DNA from: Balneola sp.
GTDB taxonomy: Bacteria > Bacteroidota > Rhodothermia > Balneolales > Balneolaceae
DNA: 64,000 nucleotides
Assembly (NCBI GenBank): GCA_028284195.1
Contig: JANQSE010000006.1
Location: 62,001 to 126,000 of the forward strand
Reading direction: 5' to 3'
A program made the position numbers and the translations under genes. A model generated the notes under the pieces. That model saw only the letters and a program-made list of their open reading frames with translations. It was not told the origin of the DNA and searched no databases. Of the stretch, positions 1-33,329 are shown piece after piece (position 1 is the stretch's first letter; each line of letters starts with the position of its first letter).

Positions 1-1049
1 TGGTTTTTGATGGTGATTCCCTCGCGCTGGATCAATCCGGAAAAATCATCAGCAGGGCTAAACGTTTTGCTGAGACTTATATCGATATCCAGTACGAAAT
101 AGATTCACAATCGGTCGTTCAAACCGGAAGCACAAGCTCAAGCTTGGATGCCCCAAACCCTATTGAAAGTATGTTTAACGGTTTGGTAAAGGGTTTGCAG
201 GATTATATCATAAAATCAAAAGCAGCAGCTAAGGTAGTTCTTGGTTTAAGCGGCGGGGTTGATTCGGCCTTAGTTGCTGTGATAGCCAAAGAAGCTCTCG
301 GGCCGAAAAATGTGCTGGCGGTTACCATGCCATCAGAGTTTTCATCCGAAGGGAGTGTGACAGATTCCAAAAAGCTAGCCACTAATCTTGGAATAGAACT
401 ACAAGAAATCTCAATTAAGCCAATTTTTGACTCCTACCTGGCGCAACTGAATCCGATTTTTGAAGGAATGGATTTTAATGTAGCAGAAGAGAACCTTCAG
501 AGTAGAAGCCGTGGGGATTTGCTCATGGCCATTGCAAATAAGTTCGGTTTTATGCTTTTGAATACTGGCAACAAATCAGAAACAGCCGTTGGTTATTGCA
601 CATTATATGGAGATATGGCCGGCGGGCTTGGGCTGATTTCTGATTTGTACAAAACCGAAGTGTATGCCATGTGCTGCTGGCTGAATGAGCAGTACTATCA
701 AAAAGAAATAATTCCACAAGCGATTATAGATAAAGAACCAAGTGCAGAATTGCGCCCTGATCAAAAAGATTCAGATTCTTTGCCTGATTATGGAACATTA
801 GATACCGTTTTGGAATATTACCTGGAGCACCAGCTTTCAAGAGAGGAAATAATCCGGAAAGGATTTGATGAGGAATTGATCGACCGGATTTTACGATTGG
901 TTGATATTAACGAACACAAAAGATACCAGGCGGCACCCGGCTTAAAAATGTCGGCAAAAGCATTTGGAGCTGGCAGAAGATGGCCTATTGTTCAAGGTTG
1001 GACAGGCCAGGAGAGAAAATCACAAAAACCTGTTGCCAGAAAACAATAA
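1..1049 (+). CDS. nadE: Glutamine-dependent NAD+ synthase, C-terminal part (5' end outside window)
   Basis: The reading frame is open from base 3, so the gene starts upstream of the window; the TTG at 144 is internal. The first ~45 visible residues match the end of a carbon-nitrogen hydrolase (glutaminase) domain (FDGDSL, RAKRFAE). The rest is the synthetase domain: PP-loop SGGVDS at 249-266 for ATP binding, then the NTGNKSE and GDMAGGLGLISDLYKTEVY family signatures. The enzyme amidates deamido-NAD+ to NAD+ using ammonia channelled from glutamine, in the cytoplasm, as the last step of NAD synthesis. It is followed after 105 bases by mltD on the same strand. Identity is secure; only the N-terminal glutaminase half is not visible. 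Confidence 0.95.
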   Translation, partial: VFDGDSLALDQSGKIISRAKRFAETYIDIQYEIDSQSVVQTGSTSSSLDAPNPIESMFNGLVKGLQDYIIKSKAAAKVVLGLSGGVDSALVAVIAKEALGPKNVLAVTMPSEFSSEGSVTDSKKLATNLGIELQEISIKPIFDSYLAQLNPIFEGMDFNVAEENLQSRSRGDLLMAIANKFGFMLLNTGNKSETAVGYCTLYGDMAGGLGLISDLYKTEVYAMCCWLNEQYYQKEIIPQAIIDKEPSAELRPDQKDSDSLPDYGTLDTVLEYYLEHQLSREEIIRKGFDEELIDRILRLVDINEHKRYQAAPGLKMSAKAFGAGRRWPIVQGWTGQERKSQKPVARKQ

Positions 1050-1154
1050 CCTTTCATTTCGAAGGTTGAAATTCAGGGATCAGAGAAATGCCTTTTTACG
1101 ATATATATGGCATTAATTTACTACTTTAAGCAAGTTTTAAATCTACAGACAGAC

Positions 1155-3146
1155 ATGCAGAATCTTACTAAAATCATTTTAAGTTTTTCGCTTTTGCTAT
1201 GCCTAGGCTCAGTACAAGCTCAGGATAGTACCATCATCAAGAAAGAAGACATGCCCTTGCGGCTGCTGCCCGTAACTAACCCGTTGTTGAATAAAAAAAC
1301 TATCGAGAAAGAGAGCGAATTTGAACCGGTTACGGTTGAACTTGATGCTTTCCAAAAAGATATCCTTCGCAGAATCACTGATATTTATCAACTGCATGTG
1401 TTGAGTCTGGAATCTCAACTTAATAATGACGCTTTAGAGGCAGAGACATACATAAATGATGCATTAAATGCTTCACAAGCATTGCTGGATGATTTCCCGG
1501 AGATCCGTTCTGATCGGCGCTTTGCTGAGCTATCAAGAGCTGTGGTAAGCGAGTATCGGCAATTTTATGGGATAAGCGAGGACGCAGATCGTGCTCAGGG
1601 AGAAATTTTTGCAATACAAGAAGAGCTTTTCGCTGCCGATGAGGCTTTCTTTGATGAGGATTTTGATTTCCCCCGAGATGTCCTTTTACCCAAAACAACA
1701 GTTCCGCTTATACAGAACAGATATGTAACTAACAGCCTGGTGTATTATACCATAAAGCGTCCGGAAGTAATGGAACTGTGGTTAAAACGTGCCGAAGTAT
1801 ATATGCCGATGATCCAAAAAATCTTTAAAGAAGAAAGATTACCTTCTGAACTAGCTTATTTAGCGTTTATTGAAAGCGGATTAAACCCCAAAGCACGAAG
1901 CTGGGCGGCTGCGGTAGGTATGTGGCAGTTTATTGCAGCAACCGGAAGAGTTTACGGGTTAGAAATAAACTGGTGGGTAGATGAGCGGCGGGATCCTGAA
2001 AAAGCAACAAGAGCTGCTGCGCGTCATTTAAAAGATTTGTACGGAATCTGGAATGACTGGCACCTAGCCATGGCCAATTATAACATCAGCCCCAGAGGTT
2101 TAAACCGTGCAATTCGCCGGGCCGGAGGAAAAAAGGATTATTGGGAAGCGTATCCATATTTACCAAGAGAAACCAGAGGATATGTTCCAGGTTTTATTGC
2201 TACTGCAATGATCGGGTTAAATCCGGAGGAGTTTGGGTTTCAAAAAAATTATGAAGCAGAGCCATACAATTACGATGTAGTAGAAGTAGAAGGTTTAATG
2301 CCGCTTAATGAATTGGCAAAAGCAACGGGTATTAGTGTAAACGAACTGAAGGATTATAATCCTGAACTTTTGAGATGGGCAACGCCTCCGGGAAATAAAT
2401 ACCCTTTGAAGATACCTTCCGGTAAAAAAGAAGAATTCTTAGCTGCATATAAAGACATTCCCAAAGATAAACGTGCTCAGGATATGACTGTTCATACCGT
2501 TCGCAGAGGCGAATCCATCGGGTTAATTGCCCAGAAATATGGTACAACCGTACGTGGAATTTATGCCAGTAACGAAAATCTTTCAAAAATTATACACCCT
2601 GGGCAAAAACTGGTAATTCCATTACCAGCTGGCAGTGCCGGAAAGATTTCAGCAAATCGCCCGACAAATATTTCTAATACAAGTCGCTCGCGATCTACAT
2701 CATCCAGATCAGGGGCTCCTTCTAATTCAACAAGATTGAGGTATAAAGTAAAAACAGGAGACACTATAGGCCATATCGCAGAATGGTATGATGTACGTGC
2801 TTTTGAAATCAGGGCTTGGAATGGGATTGGAAATACCATAAGGGTTGGGCAAACTCTCACAATATATGTTCCAAAGCAAAACGATGAGCATTACAAGAAA
2901 ATTAATTCTTTAAGCTATCGCCAAAAGCAGGATTTGGAACGCAAGCAGCACCGGGGAGAAAATATTTTGTTGGCCTCAGCTACAGGTAGCACCAATGGCT
3001 TTAAAACTTATACCGTAAGAAGAAATGATACGCTTGGGGAGATTGCTCAAAGTTTTGGTGTAAGTGTTTCTTCACTTCGTGAGTTAAACGGGATAAGAGG
3101 TTCAAAAATAGTAGTTGGGCAGGTATTGAAAATCAGTAAGCAGTAG
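1155..3146 (+). CDS. mltD: Membrane/periplasmic lytic murein transglycosylase D with LysM repeats
   Basis: I start it at the ATG at 1155, because this begins directly with a signal peptide (MQNLTKIILSFSLLLCLGS, cleavage near VQAQ); an ATG at 1107 would add 16 residues before it. The SLT catalytic domain lies around residues 225-350, with the catalytic Glu (residue 240, codon 1872-1874) in AFIESGLNPKA followed by GMWQF. Three LysM peptidoglycan-binding repeats follow at about 444-490, 528-575 and 616-662, and a degenerate one precedes them near 380-425. The enzyme cleaves glycan strands to 1,6-anhydro-muropeptides. It lies four bases upstream of the S41 protease gene, so the two are probably co-transcribed. 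Confidence 0.93.
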   Translation: MQNLTKIILSFSLLLCLGSVQAQDSTIIKKEDMPLRLLPVTNPLLNKKTIEKESEFEPVTVELDAFQKDILRRITDIYQLHVLSLESQLNNDALEAETYINDALNASQALLDDFPEIRSDRRFAELSRAVVSEYRQFYGISEDADRAQGEIFAIQEELFAADEAFFDEDFDFPRDVLLPKTTVPLIQNRYVTNSLVYYTIKRPEVMELWLKRAEVYMPMIQKIFKEERLPSELAYLAFIESGLNPKARSWAAAVGMWQFIAATGRVYGLEINWWVDERRDPEKATRAAARHLKDLYGIWNDWHLAMANYNISPRGLNRAIRRAGGKKDYWEAYPYLPRETRGYVPGFIATAMIGLNPEEFGFQKNYEAEPYNYDVVEVEGLMPLNELAKATGISVNELKDYNPELLRWATPPGNKYPLKIPSGKKEEFLAAYKDIPKDKRAQDMTVHTVRRGESIGLIAQKYGTTVRGIYASNENLSKIIHPGQKLVIPLPAGSAGKISANRPTNISNTSRSRSTSSRSGAPSNSTRLRYKVKTGDTIGHIAEWYDVRAFEIRAWNGIGNTIRVGQTLTIYVPKQNDEHYKKINSLSYRQKQDLERKQHRGENILLASATGSTNGFKTYTVRRNDTLGEIAQSFGVSVSSLRELNGIRGSKIVVGQVLKISKQ

Positions 3147-3149
3147 CTC

Positions 3150-4790
3150 ATGGCTAAATACAAATCCATATTGGTTTTAGTTTTCTGCTTTTTATGTACC
3201 GGTATAGTAAAAGCACAGCAACAGGATATCTATTTCCTCATCAAGAAAAACTTTTCCATTTTTAGCCAAACATATGAGAATGTGGCCCTTGAATATGTGG
3301 ATGTTATTGATCCTGAAAAATTGATGCGAATTGGTATTGATGCCATGCTGGAAACGCTGGATCCATATACCGTGCTTTACAATGAATCTCAGAATGAGCA
3401 GGCTGAGATTTTATCAAGAGGGAACTACGCCGGCATTGGAATAGAAGCCGGTTACAGAGATGGAAATGTGGTGATTGTAGCTCCTGTGGAAGGTGGCACT
3501 GCTGAACGGGTTGGGCTAAAAGCCGGCGATGTAATTGTAGCAATAGATGGCATTTCTACTGAAAATCTACAGCCCGAAGAAGTACAAACGTTAACAGCGG
3601 GGGAAGTTGGTTCGGAAGTAACCCTGACCATTCAGCGGTTTGGTGTAGATCAAATGCTTGATTTTACCTTAAAACGAGAACGCATAGAAGTGAAAAATGT
3701 ATCTCATACTGCTTTAATTGGTGATAATGAAGATATTGGTTATATAAAACTGGCACAGTTTGGGCAACAATCGGCAGATGAGATCAGAACCTCGATGATC
3801 GAATTAGGAGAGCAAAAAGATTTGAAAGGTTTGGTATTGGATTTGAGAGACAATCCGGGAGGGATCTTGCAGGAAGCCGTATCTATTATAGATAAATTTG
3901 TGGAGCCTGGATTAATGGTTGTGGAAAACCGGGGAAGAATTGCCGAATACAACCAAACTTTTTCAACTAATGAACCTGTTATGTTTGATAAGCCGGTAGT
4001 GGTTTTGATAAACGGGGGAAGTGCCAGTGCTTCAGAAGTAGTTTCCGGAGCGTTACAGGACCTGGACCGGGCAGTTGTAGTAGGTGAGCAAAGTTTTGGT
4101 AAAGGGTTGGTTCAAATCGTTAAACCAATGCCGTACAATACTTCAATGAAGGTTACAATTGCACGGTATTATATCCCAAGCGGCAGAAGTATTCAGTCTG
4201 TTGATTATACTCATGAAGGAAGAAATTCCGGAGTTATTAAAAGAGAGCAATCAAGCAATGTTTTTAAAACAAAAAATGGTCGTGAGGTAAAAGAGGGTAG
4301 AGGCATTGAGCCTGATATTGTAGTAGAAACAGGAGCACCGAGCCTGCTTGAGATCTCTTTACTTCAAAAAGGGATAATCTTTGATTTTGCTACCCAGTAC
4401 TTTGCCGGTAACCCTGACAAAGATTTAAAAACAATTCCGCAAGGAATATTCGAAGGGTTTAAAAACTATTTGGAAAAAGTAAACTTTGATACTTCAGATG
4501 AGCTCGAAGGCTATATAGATATTCTTGAAAAAGAACTTAAAGGAGTTGCAGGTTCCGAATCCCGGATCAATGAACTGAGAACTCTTTTGGATCAACAAAA
4601 AGATCAAGAACTGCAAAATAGCAGGAAGTTTATTGAGCAGACTATTTGGTTAGAATTACAAACCAGAAAAGGCGGGCTTTCGGCTCGTACAAATGCTTCG
4701 TTGTCTATTGATGAACAACTAAAAACTGCTATTGACCTTATTAAAAAACCAGCCGCTATCGAAGATATACTTGACGGTGAAAATAATTAA
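3150..4790 (+). CDS. C-terminal processing peptidase, S41 family, with PDZ domain
   Basis: Exported: signal peptide ends near IVKAQQ (residue ~23). A PDZ domain covers about residues 90-165 (APVEGGTAERVGLKAGDVI). The S41 core carries the GGSASASE motif near residues 290-296, which holds the nucleophilic Ser, and the general-base Lys at 318 in SFGKGLVQ, the usual Ser/Lys dyad of Ctp/Prc proteases. The ~130-residue C-terminal tail after the core is helical and not assigned. Family members trim C-termini of periplasmic proteins, including murein hydrolases, which fits the neighbouring transglycosylase gene. Its stop codon shares one base with the ATG of the next gene, indicating translational coupling. 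Confidence 0.93.
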   Translation: MAKYKSILVLVFCFLCTGIVKAQQQDIYFLIKKNFSIFSQTYENVALEYVDVIDPEKLMRIGIDAMLETLDPYTVLYNESQNEQAEILSRGNYAGIGIEAGYRDGNVVIVAPVEGGTAERVGLKAGDVIVAIDGISTENLQPEEVQTLTAGEVGSEVTLTIQRFGVDQMLDFTLKRERIEVKNVSHTALIGDNEDIGYIKLAQFGQQSADEIRTSMIELGEQKDLKGLVLDLRDNPGGILQEAVSIIDKFVEPGLMVVENRGRIAEYNQTFSTNEPVMFDKPVVVLINGGSASASEVVSGALQDLDRAVVVGEQSFGKGLVQIVKPMPYNTSMKVTIARYYIPSGRSIQSVDYTHEGRNSGVIKREQSSNVFKTKNGREVKEGRGIEPDIVVETGAPSLLEISLLQKGIIFDFATQYFAGNPDKDLKTIPQGIFEGFKNYLEKVNFDTSDELEGYIDILEKELKGVAGSESRINELRTLLDQQKDQELQNSRKFIEQTIWLELQTRKGGLSARTNASLSIDEQLKTAIDLIKKPAAIEDILDGENN

Positions 4791-5641
4791 TGTCCGATAA
4801 AGCAGATTTACATATTCATACTACGTATTCGGATGGGCAATTAAGTCCGGTAGAGGTTATAAAACTGGCTGCCGAAAAGAAGCTTACATCAGTAGCAATT
4901 ACCGATCATGATACTTTTGAAGCATATGCCGTTGCAAAACCCTTCGCAGATGAGGCCGGGCTGGAGTTAATCCCCGGGGTAGAGATAACCACTATGTTTA
5001 ATGGGAGGGAATCTCACATTCTTGCATACTATTTTGAAACAGATACAAATTACTTTACGGAGTTTTTAGCAAATCAAAAACGCTCAAGAACAGATCGGAT
5101 TAAAGTGATTGTAGAAATATTGCAGAATCAAAAGATCGAAATCGAATACTCGGAAGTATGGGCGCAAGGAAATGGTGCAAACCTTGGCAGGCCACACATT
5201 GCAAAAGTTTTGATAGATAAAGGATACGTTTCCAGCATTACTGAAGCATTTAATCTGTATTTAAGCAACGAAAAACTTGGGGAGGTAAATAATTCTTACT
5301 CAAATTCGGAAGAAGTGATTCAAATGATCAAGAATGTAGGCGGAGCAGCTATATTAGCTCATCCCGGCAGATTTTACTCTAACGAAGAAGTCGAAGAATT
5401 TATAGAATTGGGAATAGATGGCATTGAATGTATTCATCCAAGCCATAACTGGAAAAAGCAGTTAAAATTTGTTGAGTTTTGCGAAAAGCATAACCTTTTG
5501 AAAACAGGCGGGAGTGATTATCATGGAAGTTATGATAATGCAAATGCCCATGTGGGCATTGTAACCATAGCTCAAAAGCATGTATCGGCAATGAAACGAA
5601 TGACTAACCAAAGAAAACAAACCATATTAGTAAAAGAATAA
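4790..5641 (+). CDS. PHP-domain metal-dependent phosphoesterase (TrpH/RNase AM-like)
   Basis: A single-domain PHP protein of 283 residues. Metal ligands are visible: DLHIHTTYSDG at 6-16, TDHDTF at about 39-44, a Glu in GVEI, HPGRF, and GSDYHG near the C-terminus. Closest in form to YciV/TrpH proteins, which hydrolyse nucleoside 3',5'-bisphosphates and trim RNA 5' ends; the substrate cannot be fixed from sequence. It overlaps the S41 protease stop by one base and ends three bases before ribH, so it belongs to the same operon. Confidence 0.87.
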   Translation: MSDKADLHIHTTYSDGQLSPVEVIKLAAEKKLTSVAITDHDTFEAYAVAKPFADEAGLELIPGVEITTMFNGRESHILAYYFETDTNYFTEFLANQKRSRTDRIKVIVEILQNQKIEIEYSEVWAQGNGANLGRPHIAKVLIDKGYVSSITEAFNLYLSNEKLGEVNNSYSNSEEVIQMIKNVGGAAILAHPGRFYSNEEVEEFIELGIDGIECIHPSHNWKKQLKFVEFCEKHNLLKTGGSDYHGSYDNANAHVGIVTIAQKHVSAMKRMTNQRKQTILVKE

Positions 5642-5644
5642 TAT

Positions 5645-6115
5645 ATGGCCATCAACTATATAGAAACGAATACCAGACCGGAAAATCCAAAAATAGGCAT
5701 TGTTGTATCCCGTTGGAATTCTTCAATAACTGATAAAATGCTTGATGGAGCCTTAAAGGCTTTAAAAGCTAATGGAGTTAAAGAACAGGAAATAACTGTG
5801 GTTCGGTGCCCGGGGTCTTTCGAATTACCCCTGGCGGTACAAAGCCTTATACAAAGTAATAGCTATGATGGGATAATCGCGCTTGGTGTAATAATTCGCG
5901 GAGGTACTCCACATTTTGAATATGTTTGTGATGCGGTAACTCAGGGAATACTTGAGATTAATCTAAAGTTGGGAAAGCCCGTGGCATTTGGCGTGTTGAC
6001 TACTGATAACGTAAAACAAGCTTTAGAAAGAGTTGAAGATGAAGGGAACAAAGGTGCAGAAGCGGCATTAGCTTTGCTGGAAATGATATCACTACAGCAA
6101 AATCTTAATAGTTGA
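5645..6115 (+). CDS. ribH: 6,7-dimethyl-8-ribityllumazine synthase
   Basis: 156 residues, the usual length. Family motifs: SRWNSSITDKML near the N-terminus, the VRCPGSFELP substrate loop, ALGVIIRGGTPHFEYVC with the catalytic His, and FGVLTTDN. It condenses the ribitylamino-uracil intermediate with dihydroxybutanone phosphate in riboflavin synthesis and normally forms icosahedral or pentameric assemblies in the cytoplasm. No other rib gene is nearby, so the pathway is scattered in this genome. An imperfect hairpin with a T-run follows at 6122-6161. Confidence 0.96.
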   Translation: MAINYIETNTRPENPKIGIVVSRWNSSITDKMLDGALKALKANGVKEQEITVVRCPGSFELPLAVQSLIQSNSYDGIIALGVIIRGGTPHFEYVCDAVTQGILEINLKLGKPVAFGVLTTDNVKQALERVEDEGNKGAEAALALLEMISLQQNLNS

Positions 6116-6121
6116 AACTCT

Positions 6122-6161
6122 AATCATACCTTGATATAAGGTGATTAATACTCTATTTTTT
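6122..6161 (+). terminator. Weak hairpin with T-run after ribH
   Basis: Arms 6122-6132 and 6138-6146 pair with a two-base bulge and a short loop; a T-rich run (CTATTTTTT) follows. It could attenuate transcription between ribH and uppS. The stem is imperfect, so this is tentative. Confidence 0.35.
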
Positions 6162-6166
6162 AAAGC

Positions 6167-6997
6167 TTGAAAATCAGCCGACAATTTGTGAAAAAACTCA
6201 CGCTCACCAATACAGAACAGACAAAAGAAGATCAGAAAAAGCAACTGGAATTGAAAAAATCTGGTGAGGTACCTGAACATATAGCCATTATTATGGATGG
6301 AAATGGGAGATGGGCTCGAAGCAAAGGCAGTATTCGTCTTCATGGTCACAAAGTTGGTGTTGATTCTGTTCGTGATATCACTGAGTCTTGCGCACAGTTG
6401 GGTGTAAAGTATTTGACGTTGTATGCCTTTTCTACTGAAAATTGGGGAAGGCCATCGGCAGAGGTGAGAGGATTAATGAGATTGCTGGTTTCTTCGCTTC
6501 GTAAAGAGGCTGAGAATCTTCATAAAAATAATATCAAATTGGTTACCATCGGTCAAATTGATCGTTTTCCTGAAGATTGCAAAAAGCAGCTGAATGAGGC
6601 AATAGAGCTTACAAAAAATAACGATCGTCTTCAGTTATGTCTCGCTTTAAGTTATTCAGGCAGGTGGGATATAACCGAAGCGGTAAAGAAAATTGGAAAC
6701 CATGTTAAGGAGGGGCGTTTAGATCCATCATTAATAAATGATCAAATGATTGCAGATCATCTTTCAACCGCGGAAGTGCCCGATCCCGATTTAATTATCA
6801 GAACAAGTGGTGAATATCGTATCAGTAACTTTTTATTGTGGCAATTGGCTTATTCAGAATTATATATGACGGAACAGTTTTGGCCGGATTTTAGAAGAGA
6901 TGAACTCTACAAAGCAATCGAATCATACCAGAGCAGGGATCGCAGATTTGGAAAAATTAATTCCTCAAAAGACGAAAACGGCTTGGCTGTTCGTTGA
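6167..6997 (+). CDS. uppS: Isoprenyl (undecaprenyl) diphosphate synthase
   Basis: Cis-prenyltransferase. Motifs in order: IIMDGNGRWA (substrate-binding Asp and the NGRWA loop), HGHKVGVDSVRDI, YAFSTENW, SYSGRWDI and DPDLIIRTSGEYRISNF. It builds the C55 lipid carrier for peptidoglycan and O-antigen at the inner membrane. No ATG precedes the conserved core; the frame opens with TTG at 6167, and GTG at 6188 is an equally plausible start, both giving a charged N-terminal extension of 30-40 residues. It sits 15 bases upstream of bamA, the common Bacteroidota arrangement. Confidence 0.94.
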   Translation: MKISRQFVKKLTLTNTEQTKEDQKKQLELKKSGEVPEHIAIIMDGNGRWARSKGSIRLHGHKVGVDSVRDITESCAQLGVKYLTLYAFSTENWGRPSAEVRGLMRLLVSSLRKEAENLHKNNIKLVTIGQIDRFPEDCKKQLNEAIELTKNNDRLQLCLALSYSGRWDITEAVKKIGNHVKEGRLDPSLINDQMIADHLSTAEVPDPDLIIRTSGEYRISNFLLWQLAYSELYMTEQFWPDFRRDELYKAIESYQSRDRRFGKINSSKDENGLAVR

Positions 6998-7012: not shown

Positions 7013-9508
7013 GTGAACAGAAAAAAAGAAGTACCAAGTTTGTTGAAGAAATTATTATTAGCAGTATTATTTATAGTAGGGATTGATTTTTTTATTGACG
7101 GGTTGTACGCTCAGGATGTTTTTGAAATTACTGATCCAACGTTAGAAACTCCTCAGGAATACACTATTAAATCGGTTGTTGTTGAAGGTAATGAAAGCAC
7201 TCGCGAACAATTCATTATAAATATCAGCTCTCTTACTATTGGCAGAACAATTACATATCCTGGGGAGGATGTAGCAGATGCATTAAGGCGTCTATTCAAC
7301 TCAGGCTTATTTGCAGATGTGGAGATTTTGATTGCTGAAAAAGTTTTGTCGGAAATAAGCCTGATCATTAAAGTAACAGAAAAGCCGCGCCTGTTAAAAT
7401 ATAAGATTGAAGGTGTAAAAAGATCCCAGCGCCGTGATCTGAATGACATGATTCGTTTGTTACCTGGAACTGCTATTACAGAGTCTAATACTTCTCAAGC
7501 AATTAATATCATTAAAAGGTTTTACAAAGAGAAAGGATATTGGTACACAAAAGTTTCAACAAGAGTTATCCCATATGAAGAAGGGGATAATCAGGCTACA
7601 TTAATTTTTGAGATAGATCCCGGAGAGCGGTTAGAAATTAAAGATATCAGGTTTGAAGGAAACGAAGAGTTTTCTGACAGAAAGCTTACCAAAACTATGA
7701 AGCCATTGAAAGAAGATAAGTGGTGGAAGTTTTTGTCTAAAAAGGTATACAAGCAAGATGATTTTGAAGAAGGTATTGGAAAAGTATTGGCACTATATCG
7801 AAAAAACGGCTACACAGATGTGCGAATACTCGATGACTCTATTTTTGTTTATAATTATGTAAAAGATCTGGATGGCGTTGGAGTATCAATAAAAGTAGAA
7901 GAAGGGCCGCAGTATAAAGTTCGAAATATTACTTGGGAAGGCAACACGGTATATACTGATGAACAGTTAGGCAGAGCTCTTAGCTTTCAAAAAGGAGATG
8001 TATTCGATGAAGAAAGATTCGATGCTAACCTCACATTCAGTCAAAATGGAACCGATGTTACATCGCTATACCAGAACATTGGATATCTATTTTTTGGTGC
8101 GGTACCTACTGTACAAAAAGTTGCTGAAGATTCTTTGGACATCAAGATTGAGATTTATGAAGATGAAATAGCAACTATCTCAGAAGTGTCTTTTTCTGGA
8201 AATACTAAAACCCACGATGATGTTGTGCGCAGAAGCTTGCGTACAATTCCAGGTGCTACCTATAGCAGAGATGCTATTATAAGAACTATAAGAGAGTTGG
8301 GAACATTGGGGTATTTTGATGCCCAGAATTTGCAACCAGATATATTACCAGACAGAGATAATAAAACCGTGAATATTTCGTACCGGCTAGACGAATCAGT
8401 ATCTACTGATAACTTTGAATTTTCCGGTGGATATGGGGGGGCACAAATTGGAGCGATAATTTCTGCCAGGGTTAATTTTAACAATTTCTCAATTAAGCGA
8501 GCATTCGAAAAGGGAGGGTGGAGGCCAATACCATCCGGAGATGGACAACAACTTTCTTTAGGAGTTCAGGTTACAGGGCAAGGTTATCAGAGCTATAGTA
8601 TAGGGTTTGTTGAGCCTTGGCTTGGCGGCAAGCCAACTTCTTTAGGGGTAAATTTTTCTTATAACCTTATTAATAATTCTAATAGGAACTCTCGTTCTTT
8701 TGGTAGAAGCGAGTTATTTTCAGGAAGTATATCTATAGGAAAAAGATTAAAATGGCCCGATGACTATTTCTCTACAAGAACAGTTTTGGGCTATCAACTC
8801 TATGATGTAGAACAATCGTCTACATTTCAAAGAGCCGGAATTTCTAACTCCATTACTATTGAGCAAACTCTTGAAAGAAATTCCTTAGATAATCCTATAT
8901 CCCCAAGCTTGGGTTCTAAGATTACTCTTTCTGGTGAAGTTGCGTTGCCAATTCCTGGCCTTGCTGATTACTATAAAATTAAAACAGGGTATCAGAATCA
9001 TTTTCCACTTACCAGAAAACTGGTTATGACCAGTACTGCTGATTTTGGATATATCGGATATTTCACAGTATCCGAACGCAGCGAATTTCAAAGGTTTCTG
9101 GTTGGAGGAACTCAACTTCAACAGCAACAAAGTTTTTTATTTGATAATATAGATATGAGAGGTTACCCTGGCGGAATAGGACAAAGCATTGGGCCTGTAT
9201 TAAATGGAGAGCAAATTGGAGGACAATTATTTAATAAATTCTCACTCGAAATGAGATATCCGGCAGTTCAAAGTCAGCAGCTGCAATTAATTCCATATGT
9301 TTTTGCGGATGCAGGGAACTCGTATCTTAATTTCTCAAGATATGATCCATTTAATCTAAAAAGATCGGCTGGTTTTGGTGCCCGATTGTTCCTTCCAATT
9401 TTAGGATTGGTTGACCTTAGTTATGGATACCGTTTCGATGGGATAGAAGGAACTTCTGTACAGCCTAATAACTGGGAATTCTTATTTAATATTGGTGCTC
9501 CTTTTTAA
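7013..9508 (+). CDS. bamA: Outer membrane protein assembly factor BamA
   Basis: Starts with GTG; signal peptide ends near residue 33 (LYAQD). Five POTRA repeats are visible, each opening with the beta-strand plus xxGN/xxGV pattern: about residues 50 (VVVEGNE), 127 (KIEGVKR), 207 (IRFEGNE), 302 (ITWEGNT) and 387 (VSFSGNT). The C-terminal half (~470-831) is the 16-strand Omp85 barrel, ending in Phe as outer-membrane proteins do. It inserts beta-barrel proteins into the outer membrane. The following three Skp-like genes supply periplasmic chaperones for the same process, and the stop codon shares one base with the first of them. Confidence 0.96.
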   Translation: MNRKKEVPSLLKKLLLAVLFIVGIDFFIDGLYAQDVFEITDPTLETPQEYTIKSVVVEGNESTREQFIINISSLTIGRTITYPGEDVADALRRLFNSGLFADVEILIAEKVLSEISLIIKVTEKPRLLKYKIEGVKRSQRRDLNDMIRLLPGTAITESNTSQAINIIKRFYKEKGYWYTKVSTRVIPYEEGDNQATLIFEIDPGERLEIKDIRFEGNEEFSDRKLTKTMKPLKEDKWWKFLSKKVYKQDDFEEGIGKVLALYRKNGYTDVRILDDSIFVYNYVKDLDGVGVSIKVEEGPQYKVRNITWEGNTVYTDEQLGRALSFQKGDVFDEERFDANLTFSQNGTDVTSLYQNIGYLFFGAVPTVQKVAEDSLDIKIEIYEDEIATISEVSFSGNTKTHDDVVRRSLRTIPGATYSRDAIIRTIRELGTLGYFDAQNLQPDILPDRDNKTVNISYRLDESVSTDNFEFSGGYGGAQIGAIISARVNFNNFSIKRAFEKGGWRPIPSGDGQQLSLGVQVTGQGYQSYSIGFVEPWLGGKPTSLGVNFSYNLINNSNRNSRSFGRSELFSGSISIGKRLKWPDDYFSTRTVLGYQLYDVEQSSTFQRAGISNSITIEQTLERNSLDNPISPSLGSKITLSGEVALPIPGLADYYKIKTGYQNHFPLTRKLVMTSTADFGYIGYFTVSERSEFQRFLVGGTQLQQQQSFLFDNIDMRGYPGGIGQSIGPVLNGEQIGGQLFNKFSLEMRYPAVQSQQLQLIPYVFADAGNSYLNFSRYDPFNLKRSAGFGARLFLPILGLVDLSYGYRFDGIEGTSVQPNNWEFLFNIGAPF

Positions 9509-10044
9509 TGAAGAAAATATTATTACATAGTGGTTTTCTGCTTCTGCTTTTTTTTATAGTTCCAAAAAATTTGGTAGCTCAGGATCAAAAAATTGGTTTT
9601 TTTGAGTCAGATTTCATTTTATCCAAAATTCCTGAATACTCAGGTATAGAGCAAAGACTCCAGATTTTGAGCGATGGTTGGAAAGATCAAATAAACCAAC
9701 TTCAAGTAGAGATTGATAATCTACAAGAAGATTTTAACGCAAAAGAGATTTTATACACTGATGAGCTTAAAAAAGAAAAACAGGAAGAAATAAACCTGAA
9801 GAAACGGGAGAAAGAAAACTTTGTATCGCAAAAATTTGGCCCTCAAGGTGAGTATTTCCAAACCCAAAAAGAATTGTTGGAGCCAATTCAACGGCAGGTT
9901 TTTGCAGCTGTAAGAACTGTTGCTCAAAGGCAGGGTTTTGATTATGTATTTGATCGTTCAGGAGATATTTATATGGTATATGCCAGGGGAGAATGGAATC
10001 TTAATGAGGCTATACTATTGGAATTAGGAATAGAAATTGAATAA
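9508..10044 (+). CDS. OmpH/Skp-family periplasmic chaperone, copy 1
   Basis: 178 residues: signal peptide ending near LVAQDQ, a short beta strand (KIGFFESDFIL), a long charged coiled coil (~residues 55-115, rich in K, E, Q) and a C-terminal strand segment. This is the jellyfish-like Skp fold, a trimer that holds unfolded outer-membrane proteins in the periplasm. Translation is coupled to bamA (TAATG). It is the most diverged of the three copies: it ends with an acidic EIE and has a longer coil-flanking insert. Confidence 0.88.
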   Translation: MKKILLHSGFLLLLFFIVPKNLVAQDQKIGFFESDFILSKIPEYSGIEQRLQILSDGWKDQINQLQVEIDNLQEDFNAKEILYTDELKKEKQEEINLKKREKENFVSQKFGPQGEYFQTQKELLEPIQRQVFAAVRTVAQRQGFDYVFDRSGDIYMVYARGEWNLNEAILLELGIEIE

Positions 10045-10070
10045 TAACGGTTAACAAAGAAGTTATCGAA

Positions 10071-10592
10071 ATGAAAAAAAGATTAGCTATAGGATTACTT
10101 TTTGTGCTTAGTACACTGCAAGTATCTGCACAAGTAAAAATAGGTTACACAAATCCGGAAGAGATTCTGGCACAATTACCGGAGGTACAGCAGATAGATA
10201 GAGAAATTAGTGAACTTTTAGCAACTAAAGACTCTTTACTGGCTATTAAAGCAAATGCACTGCAAAAAGAGTTAGACGACTATGAAGCAGTTGAAGCACA
10301 GCTTTCTCAGGAGCAGAAGCAGCAAAGGGAGCAAGATCTTCTCGCTAAAAATGATCAATTCGAAAAAGACAGGCAACAAAGTTTGAATGAGGTTCAGCAG
10401 CGGCAACTTGCGTTGATAACTCCCGTTCGAACACGGGTTTTTTCAGCAATTTCGGAAGTGGCAAGATCATTAGAGCTTGACTTGGTTATCAATAAAAGAT
10501 CGGCAAATGGAGAAGGGATCCTTTTTTATATGTCTAAAGATCAAACAGACATCACAGATTTAGTCATAGAAAAATTAAAACAATCAAAATAA
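10071..10592 (+). CDS. OmpH/Skp-family periplasmic chaperone, copy 2
   Basis: 173 residues with signal peptide (cleavage near VSAQ), the opening strand KIGYTNPEEIL, and a Q/E/K-rich coiled coil over about residues 40-110. Same architecture as its two neighbours. Eight bases separate it from copy 3, so it is part of the bamA transcription unit. Expected role: periplasmic holding of outer-membrane protein substrates; division of labour among the copies is unknown. Confidence 0.9.
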   Translation: MKKRLAIGLLFVLSTLQVSAQVKIGYTNPEEILAQLPEVQQIDREISELLATKDSLLAIKANALQKELDDYEAVEAQLSQEQKQQREQDLLAKNDQFEKDRQQSLNEVQQRQLALITPVRTRVFSAISEVARSLELDLVINKRSANGEGILFYMSKDQTDITDLVIEKLKQSK

Positions 10593-10599
10593 ATTCATC

Positions 10600-11136
10600 A
10601 TGTTAAAGAAGATTACAATTGGATTTGCACTAGTTCTTATTTCTTTCATCAGCATTAATGTTAGTGCACAAGAATTGAAAATTGGCTTTGTTAATCCTCA
10701 ATCGGTATTAGATAGGATGCCTGAAACTAAAGCTGTTCAACAAAAGTTGAAAAATTTTGCAGATAGAAAGGCACTGGAACTGCAACAAAAAGACCAAGAG
10801 TTCCAAAATGCGGTGGCAGCTTATGAGCAAAAGAAAGACGTAATTTCTGCACAGGCTAAGGAAGCCGAAGAACAAAAATTGCAACAAATGGGCCAGGAGC
10901 TTTCTAAGGCAGAGCAAACAGCACAGGTAGAACTCCAAGCAAAAAGAGCTGAGCTGTTGGGCCCACTTCAAACTCAAATAGCAGATGCTATTTCTGCAGT
11001 TGCTACGCGGGAAGGGTTGGCATTTGTGCTTAATACGGTGACGAGTACTGGTGATTTTATTATTCTATACGCTTCTGAAGAATATGCATCAAAGTATAAT
11101 ATCACTGATAAAGTAATGATAGAATTGGGGATTTAA
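10600..11136 (+). CDS. OmpH/Skp-family periplasmic chaperone, copy 3
   Basis: 178 residues: signal peptide ending at VSAQE, strand KIGFVNPQSVLDRMPE, a coiled coil over about 45-120, and a C-terminal region (AFVLNTVTSTGDFIILY) resembling copy 2. It is the last gene of the uppS-bamA-skp run and is followed directly by a strong hairpin terminator. The three tandem copies look like successive duplications with unequal divergence. Confidence 0.9.
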   Translation: MLKKITIGFALVLISFISINVSAQELKIGFVNPQSVLDRMPETKAVQQKLKNFADRKALELQQKDQEFQNAVAAYEQKKDVISAQAKEAEEQKLQQMGQELSKAEQTAQVELQAKRAELLGPLQTQIADAISAVATREGLAFVLNTVTSTGDFIILYASEEYASKYNITDKVMIELGI

Positions 11137-31143: not shown

Positions 31144-31262
31144 GGCGATTTATTTGATTTGTTCGTGTATATCAGCTGGTTTATTCAATAACATCTGGGA
31201 ATGTAAAAACGGGACAAGAAAATCAAAAAAAGATGCAAAGTTCTTTTTAAGGTTTAAGTAGT

Positions 31263-33251
31263 CTAAGAATTTGAAATATGAGTCAATAAATCGACAGTAT
31301 CTTTTGGAATCATAGGGTAGGATTTACAGATGATTTTGGTTAATTCTTCTTGAAGTTTTCCTTCACCCTTTTTTTTATAATTGCTTATAGATTTATATGT
31401 AATAGAAAATTTTTCTACTAATTCTTCATGCTTCATATGAAGGAACCAATATGGTAAGTTTATTTTCTTTCCATCAAAGTACTCTATCGCGATTAGTTCA
31501 TTATTTTTGAATAGATTAAATTGTTTCTCTATCGGTTTGAGTATATTGAGAGAAATTTCTTGTAAGACTTTTTCCTCCTTTTCAATCAAGGAGTATTCAT
31601 TCATCTCAGAATTAAAACCAGTTGTTTCATAAATGTTGTGACAGCCATCTCTTTTTAAAAAAAGTATTGCAACATATATAGGATCAAGCAAATAATTCTC
31701 GATAGTGTGTCTTTTTTCTTCTCCATGAACATATATAAATTCACTAGAAATATTGTTCTGATCCCAGTCGATAATGCCAAAGATTTTTTTATTGTCAGAT
31801 TTATGAAACTGGGTAACAATATTTTTTACTACATCTGAATTTCCTTTACCCATAGGATTATCAATAAAGTATAGAGGTGATTTTAACTCATGTTGATGCC
31901 TTTTAAGGGTTTCATATATTTTTCTAAAATAATTTCCATCTGTATTACTCTCTACAAAAACCTGTTTATGGTTTTTATAGTCAATATTCAGAGTGGGGAT
32001 TGGATCAGTAAGAAGCTCTAAAGCTTTATCTCTTCCAATTTTTCCAAGAGAACAATTACTTGTATTATTTATTTCAAATATACTCTCATCTGGCGAAAGA
32101 GCAACCGTAATAGGAGAGTGAGTAGTTATTATTACTCTAATTCCAAGTTTCCCTACAAATGTTTTATTTAATACATCTATAAGTATCTGAGTCATTTCTG
32201 GATGAAGATGAGCATCAGGTTCATCTAAGATGACTAAACTGGGGTAGGTTATTTTATTTCCATAGTAACTTGAGGTGAACAGCTTCATCACTAGTCCAAA
32301 AATGACTTTTTCACCTGCTGATAGTGATTCAACTTTAACTTCTTCTTTTAAAGACGTATTTATGAGTTTCAAACCAAAAGATAAATCAGGTTCAAAATGA
32401 TCACTAATGAGTTTAATTTGATAATTGAACTCAAAATCAGATGCAATGTCGTTAAAAAGGTCCCAAGGAGAGTCAAATAATTCTGAATAAGTTTCTTCAT
32501 TTACAGACATATTTTGTTCATTTCTTTTTTCTTTGGAAAAGAATCGTTCAGAATTTTTATATGCATTCGCTGCATGTATATAGCAAATATCAAGAAAGTT
32601 AGATCCAAAAAGATCTGTTTGGTCAATATAAATGGGTTTGATTGGCATTCGTAAAAAATGATGAGGTTCGATATCCTCTGCATTTAGATGGAAGTAAATC
32701 GACAATTCTTTAGCGAAATCAAATATTCTTTGGTATCGCTCAGAATAGTTTTGCTTTAGAATAAAATCACTAACTTCATCTAAGGTATTAAAATGACGAT
32801 TATCGCCGATCTCATTAGTCCAAGAAAATGTTCCTTTTGGATGGCTTTGAACGACTTTATTTTGCTCTAGTTTTTCATAAATATCTTTGATTCGATCTTT
32901 GTTATTCAAGTCTTCTAGTTCATATCCAAAATTAATAAGCGAGCAAAAATACAATTTGGTTTTTTGGTCTAGTTGCCGCCATGATTCACTCAATTTATTG
33001 GCATGGAAATTCCAAGTTCTTTGACCTATTGTATAAAAACCATTTGCTTCAATTCCTTCAAATTGGATTAAATTTTTTTGTTTAGGGATTAATTTAATTA
33101 AGTTTTGCTGTGGATTGTTTGCATCTTTTATAAGCTCTAATAGTTGTGTTTTACCACTTCCATTTTTTCCTGTAATCACAGTAAAGTCCGGTAGCTCTTC
33201 ACTTTCAAAATTTTTTAACGACTTATATTTATCTATTAATTTTATTTTCAT
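31263..33251 (-). CDS. ATPase-TOPRIM fusion, OLD/PARIS-like (candidate defence protein)
   Basis: 662 residues, no signal or membrane helix. N-terminal ABC-type ATPase split by a long insert: Walker A GKNGSGKT at 28-35, signature SLSAGEKVIFGL near 310, Walker B SLVILDEPDAHLHPE near 345-359, then a switch His in ITTHSPI. C-terminal TOPRIM-like region from ~425: VFVESNTDGNYF (Glu), IFGIIDWDQNN near 490 (DxD), and HTIENYLLDP, a pattern also found in DUF4435 proteins. OLD-type nucleases and the PARIS AriA/AriB pair combine such modules. The gene is visibly more AT-rich than its neighbours and stands alone, which suggests transfer. Function in defence is inferred. Confidence 0.75.
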   Translation of the reverse strand: MKIKLIDKYKSLKNFESEELPDFTVITGKNGSGKTQLLELIKDANNPQQNLIKLIPKQKNLIQFEGIEANGFYTIGQRTWNFHANKLSESWRQLDQKTKLYFCSLINFGYELEDLNNKDRIKDIYEKLEQNKVVQSHPKGTFSWTNEIGDNRHFNTLDEVSDFILKQNYSERYQRIFDFAKELSIYFHLNAEDIEPHHFLRMPIKPIYIDQTDLFGSNFLDICYIHAANAYKNSERFFSKEKRNEQNMSVNEETYSELFDSPWDLFNDIASDFEFNYQIKLISDHFEPDLSFGLKLINTSLKEEVKVESLSAGEKVIFGLVMKLFTSSYYGNKITYPSLVILDEPDAHLHPEMTQILIDVLNKTFVGKLGIRVIITTHSPITVALSPDESIFEINNTSNCSLGKIGRDKALELLTDPIPTLNIDYKNHKQVFVESNTDGNYFRKIYETLKRHQHELKSPLYFIDNPMGKGNSDVVKNIVTQFHKSDNKKIFGIIDWDQNNISSEFIYVHGEEKRHTIENYLLDPIYVAILFLKRDGCHNIYETTGFNSEMNEYSLIEKEEKVLQEISLNILKPIEKQFNLFKNNELIAIEYFDGKKINLPYWFLHMKHEELVEKFSITYKSISNYKKKGEGKLQEELTKIICKSYPMIPKDTVDLLTHISNS

Positions 33252-33260
33252 CTTCTCTAC

Positions 33261-33293
33261 TTTGTTCTTTGACCCTGAATAGGGGTATATTTG
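33261..33293 (+). promoter_or_regulatory. Promoter for pyrC: TTTG-N21-TAnnTTTG
   Basis: TTTG at 33261-33264 and TATATTTG at 33286-33293 are separated by 21 bases; the element ends 36 bases before the pyrC ATG. This is close to the Bacteroidota -33/-7 arrangement. Confidence 0.55.
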
Positions 33294-33329
33294 GCAAGCT
33301 AATGAATAATAAAGTTATCAATAAATAAT

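Follow-up and report, generated by a model that had tools for sequence, protein, structure and literature searches.

Gene and Genomic Setting

The window, by which we mean the entire stretch of 64,000 nucleotides that was analyzed, contains an ATPase-TOPRIM fusion gene at positions 31263..33251 of the minus strand. It encodes 662 amino acids, starts with ATG and is delimited here with its stop codon included. The preliminary description had placed the open reading frame at exactly these coordinates, without naming the strand. The genome assembly from which it comes (2.68 Mb) contains no second copy. With 29.8%, its GC content is the lowest among the 53 ORFs of the window (mean 39.1%, sd 3.4), about 2.7 sd below the mean, so that the AT-richness noted earlier is borne out.

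The gene lies isolated among ordinary genes, as had been proposed. A Pfam scan of the flanks identified YCII, DUF2461, TfoX_N and a dihydroorotase-like amidohydrolase near the fusion, and the genes that follow are presumably tsaB-like and accD-like, as named from their sequence. Among the flanking window genes scanned with Pfam no defense gene was found and consequently the fusion gene receives no support from a defense island. A mobilizing element is not visible in the window, while scans for promoters and terminators gave results at or near chance.

The ATPase Half

Residues 1–420 (31992..33251, minus strand) form an N-terminal ABC-type ATPase half with a fold of the PtuA/SMC/AriA kind, and the domain border indeed falls near residue 420, where it had been expected. 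Pfam places AAA_21 (4e-17, 63.6 bits, cut-off 27) and AAA_15 (1e-12, 48.8 bits, cut-off 32.1) on the fusion protein. Residue conservation was counted on an alignment of 35 members of the family. The Walker A motif GKNGSGK (residues 28–34, 33150..33170), the ABC signature LSAGE (310–314, 32310..32324), the Walker B/D-loop stretch LVILDEPDAHLHP (about 338–351, 32199..32240) and the H-loop TTHSP (376–380, 32112..32126), all on the minus strand, contribute K34, E314, D343 plus E344, and H378, respectively, each of them identical in 35/35 homologs. Specific to the family is a Pro-Trp pair, P262-W263 (32463..32468, minus strand), of which P262 is invariant and W263 is kept in at least 90%. A helical insertion spans about residues 75–245, and model confidence is lower there; the full-chain AlphaFold2 model reached a pLDDT of 81.

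The fold search with the whole chain returned a list dominated by ATPases (retron PtuA, SMC/cohesin, and AriA at Z 12.9), with AriA scoring no higher against the ATPase half than other ABC ATPases. Matches of the PDB sequence search were confined to the ATPase half and PtuA chains scored best. By hhalign, the likeness of this half descends from OLD (E 5e-18) through the AriAB fusions to AriA. The ATPase half is less decisive in this respect than the TOPRIM half.

The TOPRIM Half

The C-terminal half (residues 421–662, 31263..31991, minus strand) is an AriB/DUF4435-type TOPRIM nuclease half according to its structural model, its fold match to AriB and hhalign. On the same strand it carries the TOPRIM glutamate motif VFVES with E434 (31947..31961) and the DxD motif GIIDWD with D495 and D497 (31761..31778), both kept in 35/35 homologs and pairing with E37 and D92/D94, respectively, of AriB from the two-gene PARIS locus L104. 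The TIENYLLDP motif (31680..31706, minus strand) pairs with YSIEN of AriB; its E518 is kept in 31/35, N519 in 32/35 and P524 in 35/35 members, and D438 is kept in 34/35 aligned homologs. Since the catalytic residues are identical across all 35 homologs, the motifs of both halves are beyond chance, and the earlier reading of an ABC ATPase fused to a TOPRIM-like part with Glu, DxD and ENYLL was correct.

Pfam, NCBIfam and PADLOC alone were tried for naming the C-terminal half and left it undecided, as generic ABC ATPase models dominate. Neither the fusion protein nor its isolated C-terminal half matched Pfam TOPRIM/DUF4435 (PF14491) at E ≤ 1, the C-terminal 242 residues yielded no hit to any Pfam model at this threshold, and the family member L045 reached 19.3 bits with DUF4435, which is under the cut-off of 27. 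Because ATPases filled the whole-chain fold search, the C-terminal half was given a model and a fold search of its own. Modeled alone, it gave a pLDDT of 92.3 and a pTM of 0.90, and its best solved match was AriB (8ux9_A; Z 12.4, 192/242 residues, rmsd 3.4, VIA-align), while a second AriB structure (8v46_D) scored Z 11.9. Other solved folds gave lower scores (OLD TOPRIM Z 8.2–8.8, retron Eco8 about 6, GajA 5.7), and AriB was the sole Foldseek match at E < 0.001. A viral structure library returned mostly giant-virus and SMC-like ATPases; a clear full-length relative was not found in it.

Profile comparison led to the same assignment. The family C-terminus matched AriAB fusions best (P 94.5%, E 8e-8), AriB with P 90% (E 1.7e-6) and OLD TOPRIM with P 6%. 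These probabilities are relative and not absolute, because the reference profiles, all from the same phylum, were small: three for two-gene PARIS AriB (L104, L105, L107), three for fused AriAB (L106, L024, L027) and four for OLD (L108–L111). In a tree of the TOPRIM half with OLD sequences as outgroup, the family formed one clade (local support 0.91) that grouped with AriB and two AriAB fusions, apart from OLD. Thus the proposed DUF4435-like character of the C-terminus stands by profile (P 90–94%) and by fold, yet not as a Pfam DUF4435 match; the objection that this half, compared separately, might lack an AriB/DUF4435-type TOPRIM counterpart falls away.

Among the PADLOC models, only AriAB (3.7e-5) and HEC-01B (0.007) matched the C-terminal half. 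On the entire fusion protein, AriAB scored 77 bits across residues 256–538 only, compared to 466, 172, and 143 bits for the control fusions. Since this match is partial, the window protein is not a close PARIS relative and, given that it also lies outside Pfam DUF4435, we do not assign it to PARIS. Employed as a genome search, the AriAB model PDLC02981 matched 198/198 genomes as well as 14/14 control genomes; such raw matches are no evidence of PARIS, because the ATPase part of the model is generic.

These results bear on whether the protein might work as a class 1 OLD protein, i.e., as a DNA nuclease under ATP control whose targets are phage or damaged DNA, which we regard as unlikely. Class 1 OLD proteins combine ATPase and TOPRIM in one chain and are often encoded by single genes (PMC10568477). 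Both the domain order, found in P2 Old, TsOLD and GajA alike, and the single-gene habit agree with the fusion, its ATPase half is strongly OLD-like, and its TOPRIM fold does score against OLD C-termini. However, the TOPRIM half is much nearer to AriB than to OLD in the profile comparison (90% against 6%), in its fold (Z 12.4 against 8.8) and in the tree, and the OLD-type TOPRIM model PF20469 matched neither the fusion protein nor anything in its own genome.

Relatives on Phage and Plasmid DNA

We gathered 38 relatives, 32 of which reside in IMG/VR viral contigs, with viral contigs being over-represented owing to the collection that was searched. Full-length relatives in genome contigs stem from Pedobacter helvus and Flavobacterium terrae and are 38–39% identical to the window protein. 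A tblastn search of plasmids revealed one full-length relative, from Planktothrix, and partial matches from Rhizobium, Croceicoccus and Caballeronia that lie inside genes of 590–690 codons. The IMG/VR scan yielded more than 30 further relatives, nearly all of them a single polypeptide of 588–679 residues, while a two-gene AriB query against the viral contigs found nothing. Three viral-contig sequences (L073–L075), which are among the most divergent members, keep the glutamate and the DxD motif and are missing the glutamate of IENY; they may constitute a different TOPRIM subtype.

Some plasmid copies adjoin plasmid partition and replication genes. On the Croceicoccus plasmid L022, the relative (4146–6200) is located just downstream of a gene for a type I restriction subunit R (360–3572), a single case that would suit a PARIS-like anti-anti-restriction role. 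On the Caballeronia plasmid L023, the copy sits between two large TIR-domain proteins (1–4085 and 7398–11107) annotated as signal transduction, flanks that may mark a defense cluster.

In order to find a partner, 312 neighbor ORFs were clustered by BLAST. The most frequent neighbor protein occurred in at most 4/38 loci, in line with the one-gene unit proposed at the outset, and the neighbors that did recur, D12/Dam methylase and lysozyme among them, were phage genes. Similarly, 103 neighbors on viral contigs, annotated with PHROGs and Pfam, comprised endolysin, integrase, repressor, antitermination Q, spanin, tail and terminase genes. Only three ORFs near relatives showed an RT-like motif and the YADD signature was found in none of them. 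At the window locus itself, neither a reverse transcriptase nor a GajB-like helicase nor an HNH partner was found among the flanking ORFs. Because such genes and any recurring partner were all not found, the functional unit appears to be one gene.

The same search speaks to the possibility that the fusion is a retron type I-B ATPase-TOPRIM effector, or a component of Septu or Gabija, that was parted from its partners. The PADLOC models ATPase-Toprim_I-B and PtuA match the ATPase region in 7/7 family members, retron I-B and PtuA ATPases share a similar ABC ATPase with the fusion, PtuA gave the best PDB sequence match, and Eco8 was among the fold matches. Nevertheless, we consider this origin very improbable: the RT or HNH neighbor of retron I-B and Septu is missing, as is GajB, the UvrD-like helicase of Gabija, the adjoining genes being TfoX_N and the dihydroorotase-like gene. 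In addition, PtuA has no TOPRIM, whereas the fusion has a TOPRIM half, and the TOPRIM fold of Eco8 matched with a Z of only about 6.

A further alternative lies outside defense altogether. Carried by mobile elements, the protein could be a factor for DNA repair, plasmid or prophage maintenance, or competition, for example an addiction gene. Carriage on prophages and plasmids, including positions next to partition and replication genes, would fit such a role, and the ATPase fold is SMC/RecN-like. The SRAP (SOS-response peptidase) genes that recur near the fusion in some viral contigs point in the same direction; Pfam detected SRAP in 6/103 viral-contig neighbors, but in none of the scanned window flanks. 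However, the AriB-type catalytic site is fully conserved, immune cargo typically shows such a patchy, AT-rich, one-gene distribution, and the window copy is a single chromosomal one within a slot that shows turnover. Hence we hold a non-defense function to be improbable, a little more so than the OLD-like one. The SRAP genes that lie no farther than about 2 kb from the fusion are L045 4514–5209, L067 7445–8158, L073 4394–5137 and L074 3468–4109.

Horizontal Origin and the Chromosomal Slot

The distribution of the fusion gene is patchy. It was present in 0/7 congeners, in 1/92 genomes of the family and in 1/394 genomes of the phylum sample, and thus the locus is not conserved with this gene in relatives. 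Its GC content is below that of its flanks in 39/39 loci (window included), with a mean difference of −11.8 points; as a control, the longest other ORF per locus was below the flanks in 6/39 loci only. The copies of Pedobacter and Flavobacterium share 88% protein and 86% DNA identity, whereas identity is 54% when these two species are compared in a hemN-like core protein. The 86% DNA match stops no more than 3 bp from either end of the ORF, and no DNA similarity outside the gene was detectable in the flanks compared between both species. Nevertheless, we do not claim the ORF to be the exact mobile unit, as the non-coding DNA may simply have diverged. From these data, a horizontal acquisition that is single-gene in character is well supported. 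The mobile nature proposed in the preliminary description is therefore upheld by the distribution, but not by a mobilizing element at the window locus.

The fusion occupies a variable chromosomal slot (31144..33329) that extends from the TfoX_N gene to the dihydroorotase-like gene. Among the congeners, only G003 carries a cation-efflux gene there, five others tested carry a second TfoX-like gene, and G007 is missing the TfoX_N stretch. Since congeners harbor different genes at this position, the slot has turnover. The two TfoX-like-bearing congeners whose ORFs were listed both contain a Y1 (IS200-like) transposase gene in the slot (L014 9221–9634 and L017 6963–7376). Another Y1 (IS200-like) transposase gene (L002 5357–5902) lies upstream of the fusion gene in Pedobacter, at a distance of about 100 bp. 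The transposases at both sites possibly reflect a shared insertion habit or a coincidence.

Relation to PARIS and Probable Function

The closest functional model is PARIS. According to published accounts, AriA of the two-gene system forms a hexamer that keeps AriB inactive and senses anti-restriction proteins such as Ocr; once triggered, AriB is freed, dimerizes and cuts tRNA-Lys (PMC11455837, PMC9122126, PMC12409363). The active site of AriB is a two-metal, RNase M5-like site (PMC12409363). The fusion resembles PARIS (8ux9/8v46) in that both combine an ABC ATPase with an AriB-type TOPRIM and in that the E, DxD and SIEN motifs align. In contrast to the two genes of PARIS, the fusion is one chain, and its ATPase half resembles AriA only distantly.

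Single-gene PARIS fusions of an ATPase with DUF4435 have been reported before (Rousset 2022, PMC9122126), and consequently the one-gene architecture is not new. With such fused AriAB proteins (PADLOC PDLC02981/02982) the window protein shares this architecture and, as its best profile match, the C-terminus. It differs from them in its merely partial AriAB score (77 vs. 143–466 bits), in its position outside Pfam DUF4435 and in falling into a separate clade. The fusion family is a divergent lineage of this known ATPase-DUF4435 kind that most likely works like PARIS.

Built from the same two parts as PARIS and equipped with an AriB-type active site, the protein is best read as an ATPase-gated abortive-infection nuclease. 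We therefore consider it probable that its product acts in abortive infection, as a PARIS-like protein made of one chain. The ATPase, in an AriA-like role, would oligomerize with ATP and sense a trigger encoded by the phage, and until then the AriB-type TOPRIM nuclease would be kept inactive. A rearrangement of the ATPase might subsequently allow two tethered nuclease domains to pair into an active Mg-dependent dimer. This dimer would cut RNA, most likely tRNA, and translation would stop before the phage can replicate. We infer RNA as the substrate from the AriB-like fold together with the RNase M5-like two-metal site of AriB (PMC12409363).

The covalent linkage bears directly on this scheme. 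Since both halves are joined in one chain, a release in the style of AriB is impossible unless the chain is cut, and rearrangement with pairing of the tethered domains would thus be the likelier activation. Unless it is proteolyzed, the fusion must use a route other than the AriB release described for two-gene PARIS (PMC11455837). One might go further and envision a separate, widespread one-chain PARIS-like lineage, to which standard models give only weak scores, with a nuclease that is activated while tethered and with a phage trigger of its own, an idea we put forward tentatively, as a real possibility that falls somewhat short of an even chance.

Implications

Whether single-gene AriAB fusions form a separate class was left unclear in a review of the OLD family (PMC10568477). 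The fusion family provides a defined, recurring one-gene set, comprising 35 aligned members as well as plasmid copies with conserved catalytic residues, and it thereby renders this question directly testable. Surveys that demand full-length matches probably under-count such proteins, because Pfam DUF4435 misses the window protein and PADLOC AriAB matches it only in part. If true, activation of a tethered nuclease would be a mechanism unlike the release-and-dimerize step of two-gene PARIS.
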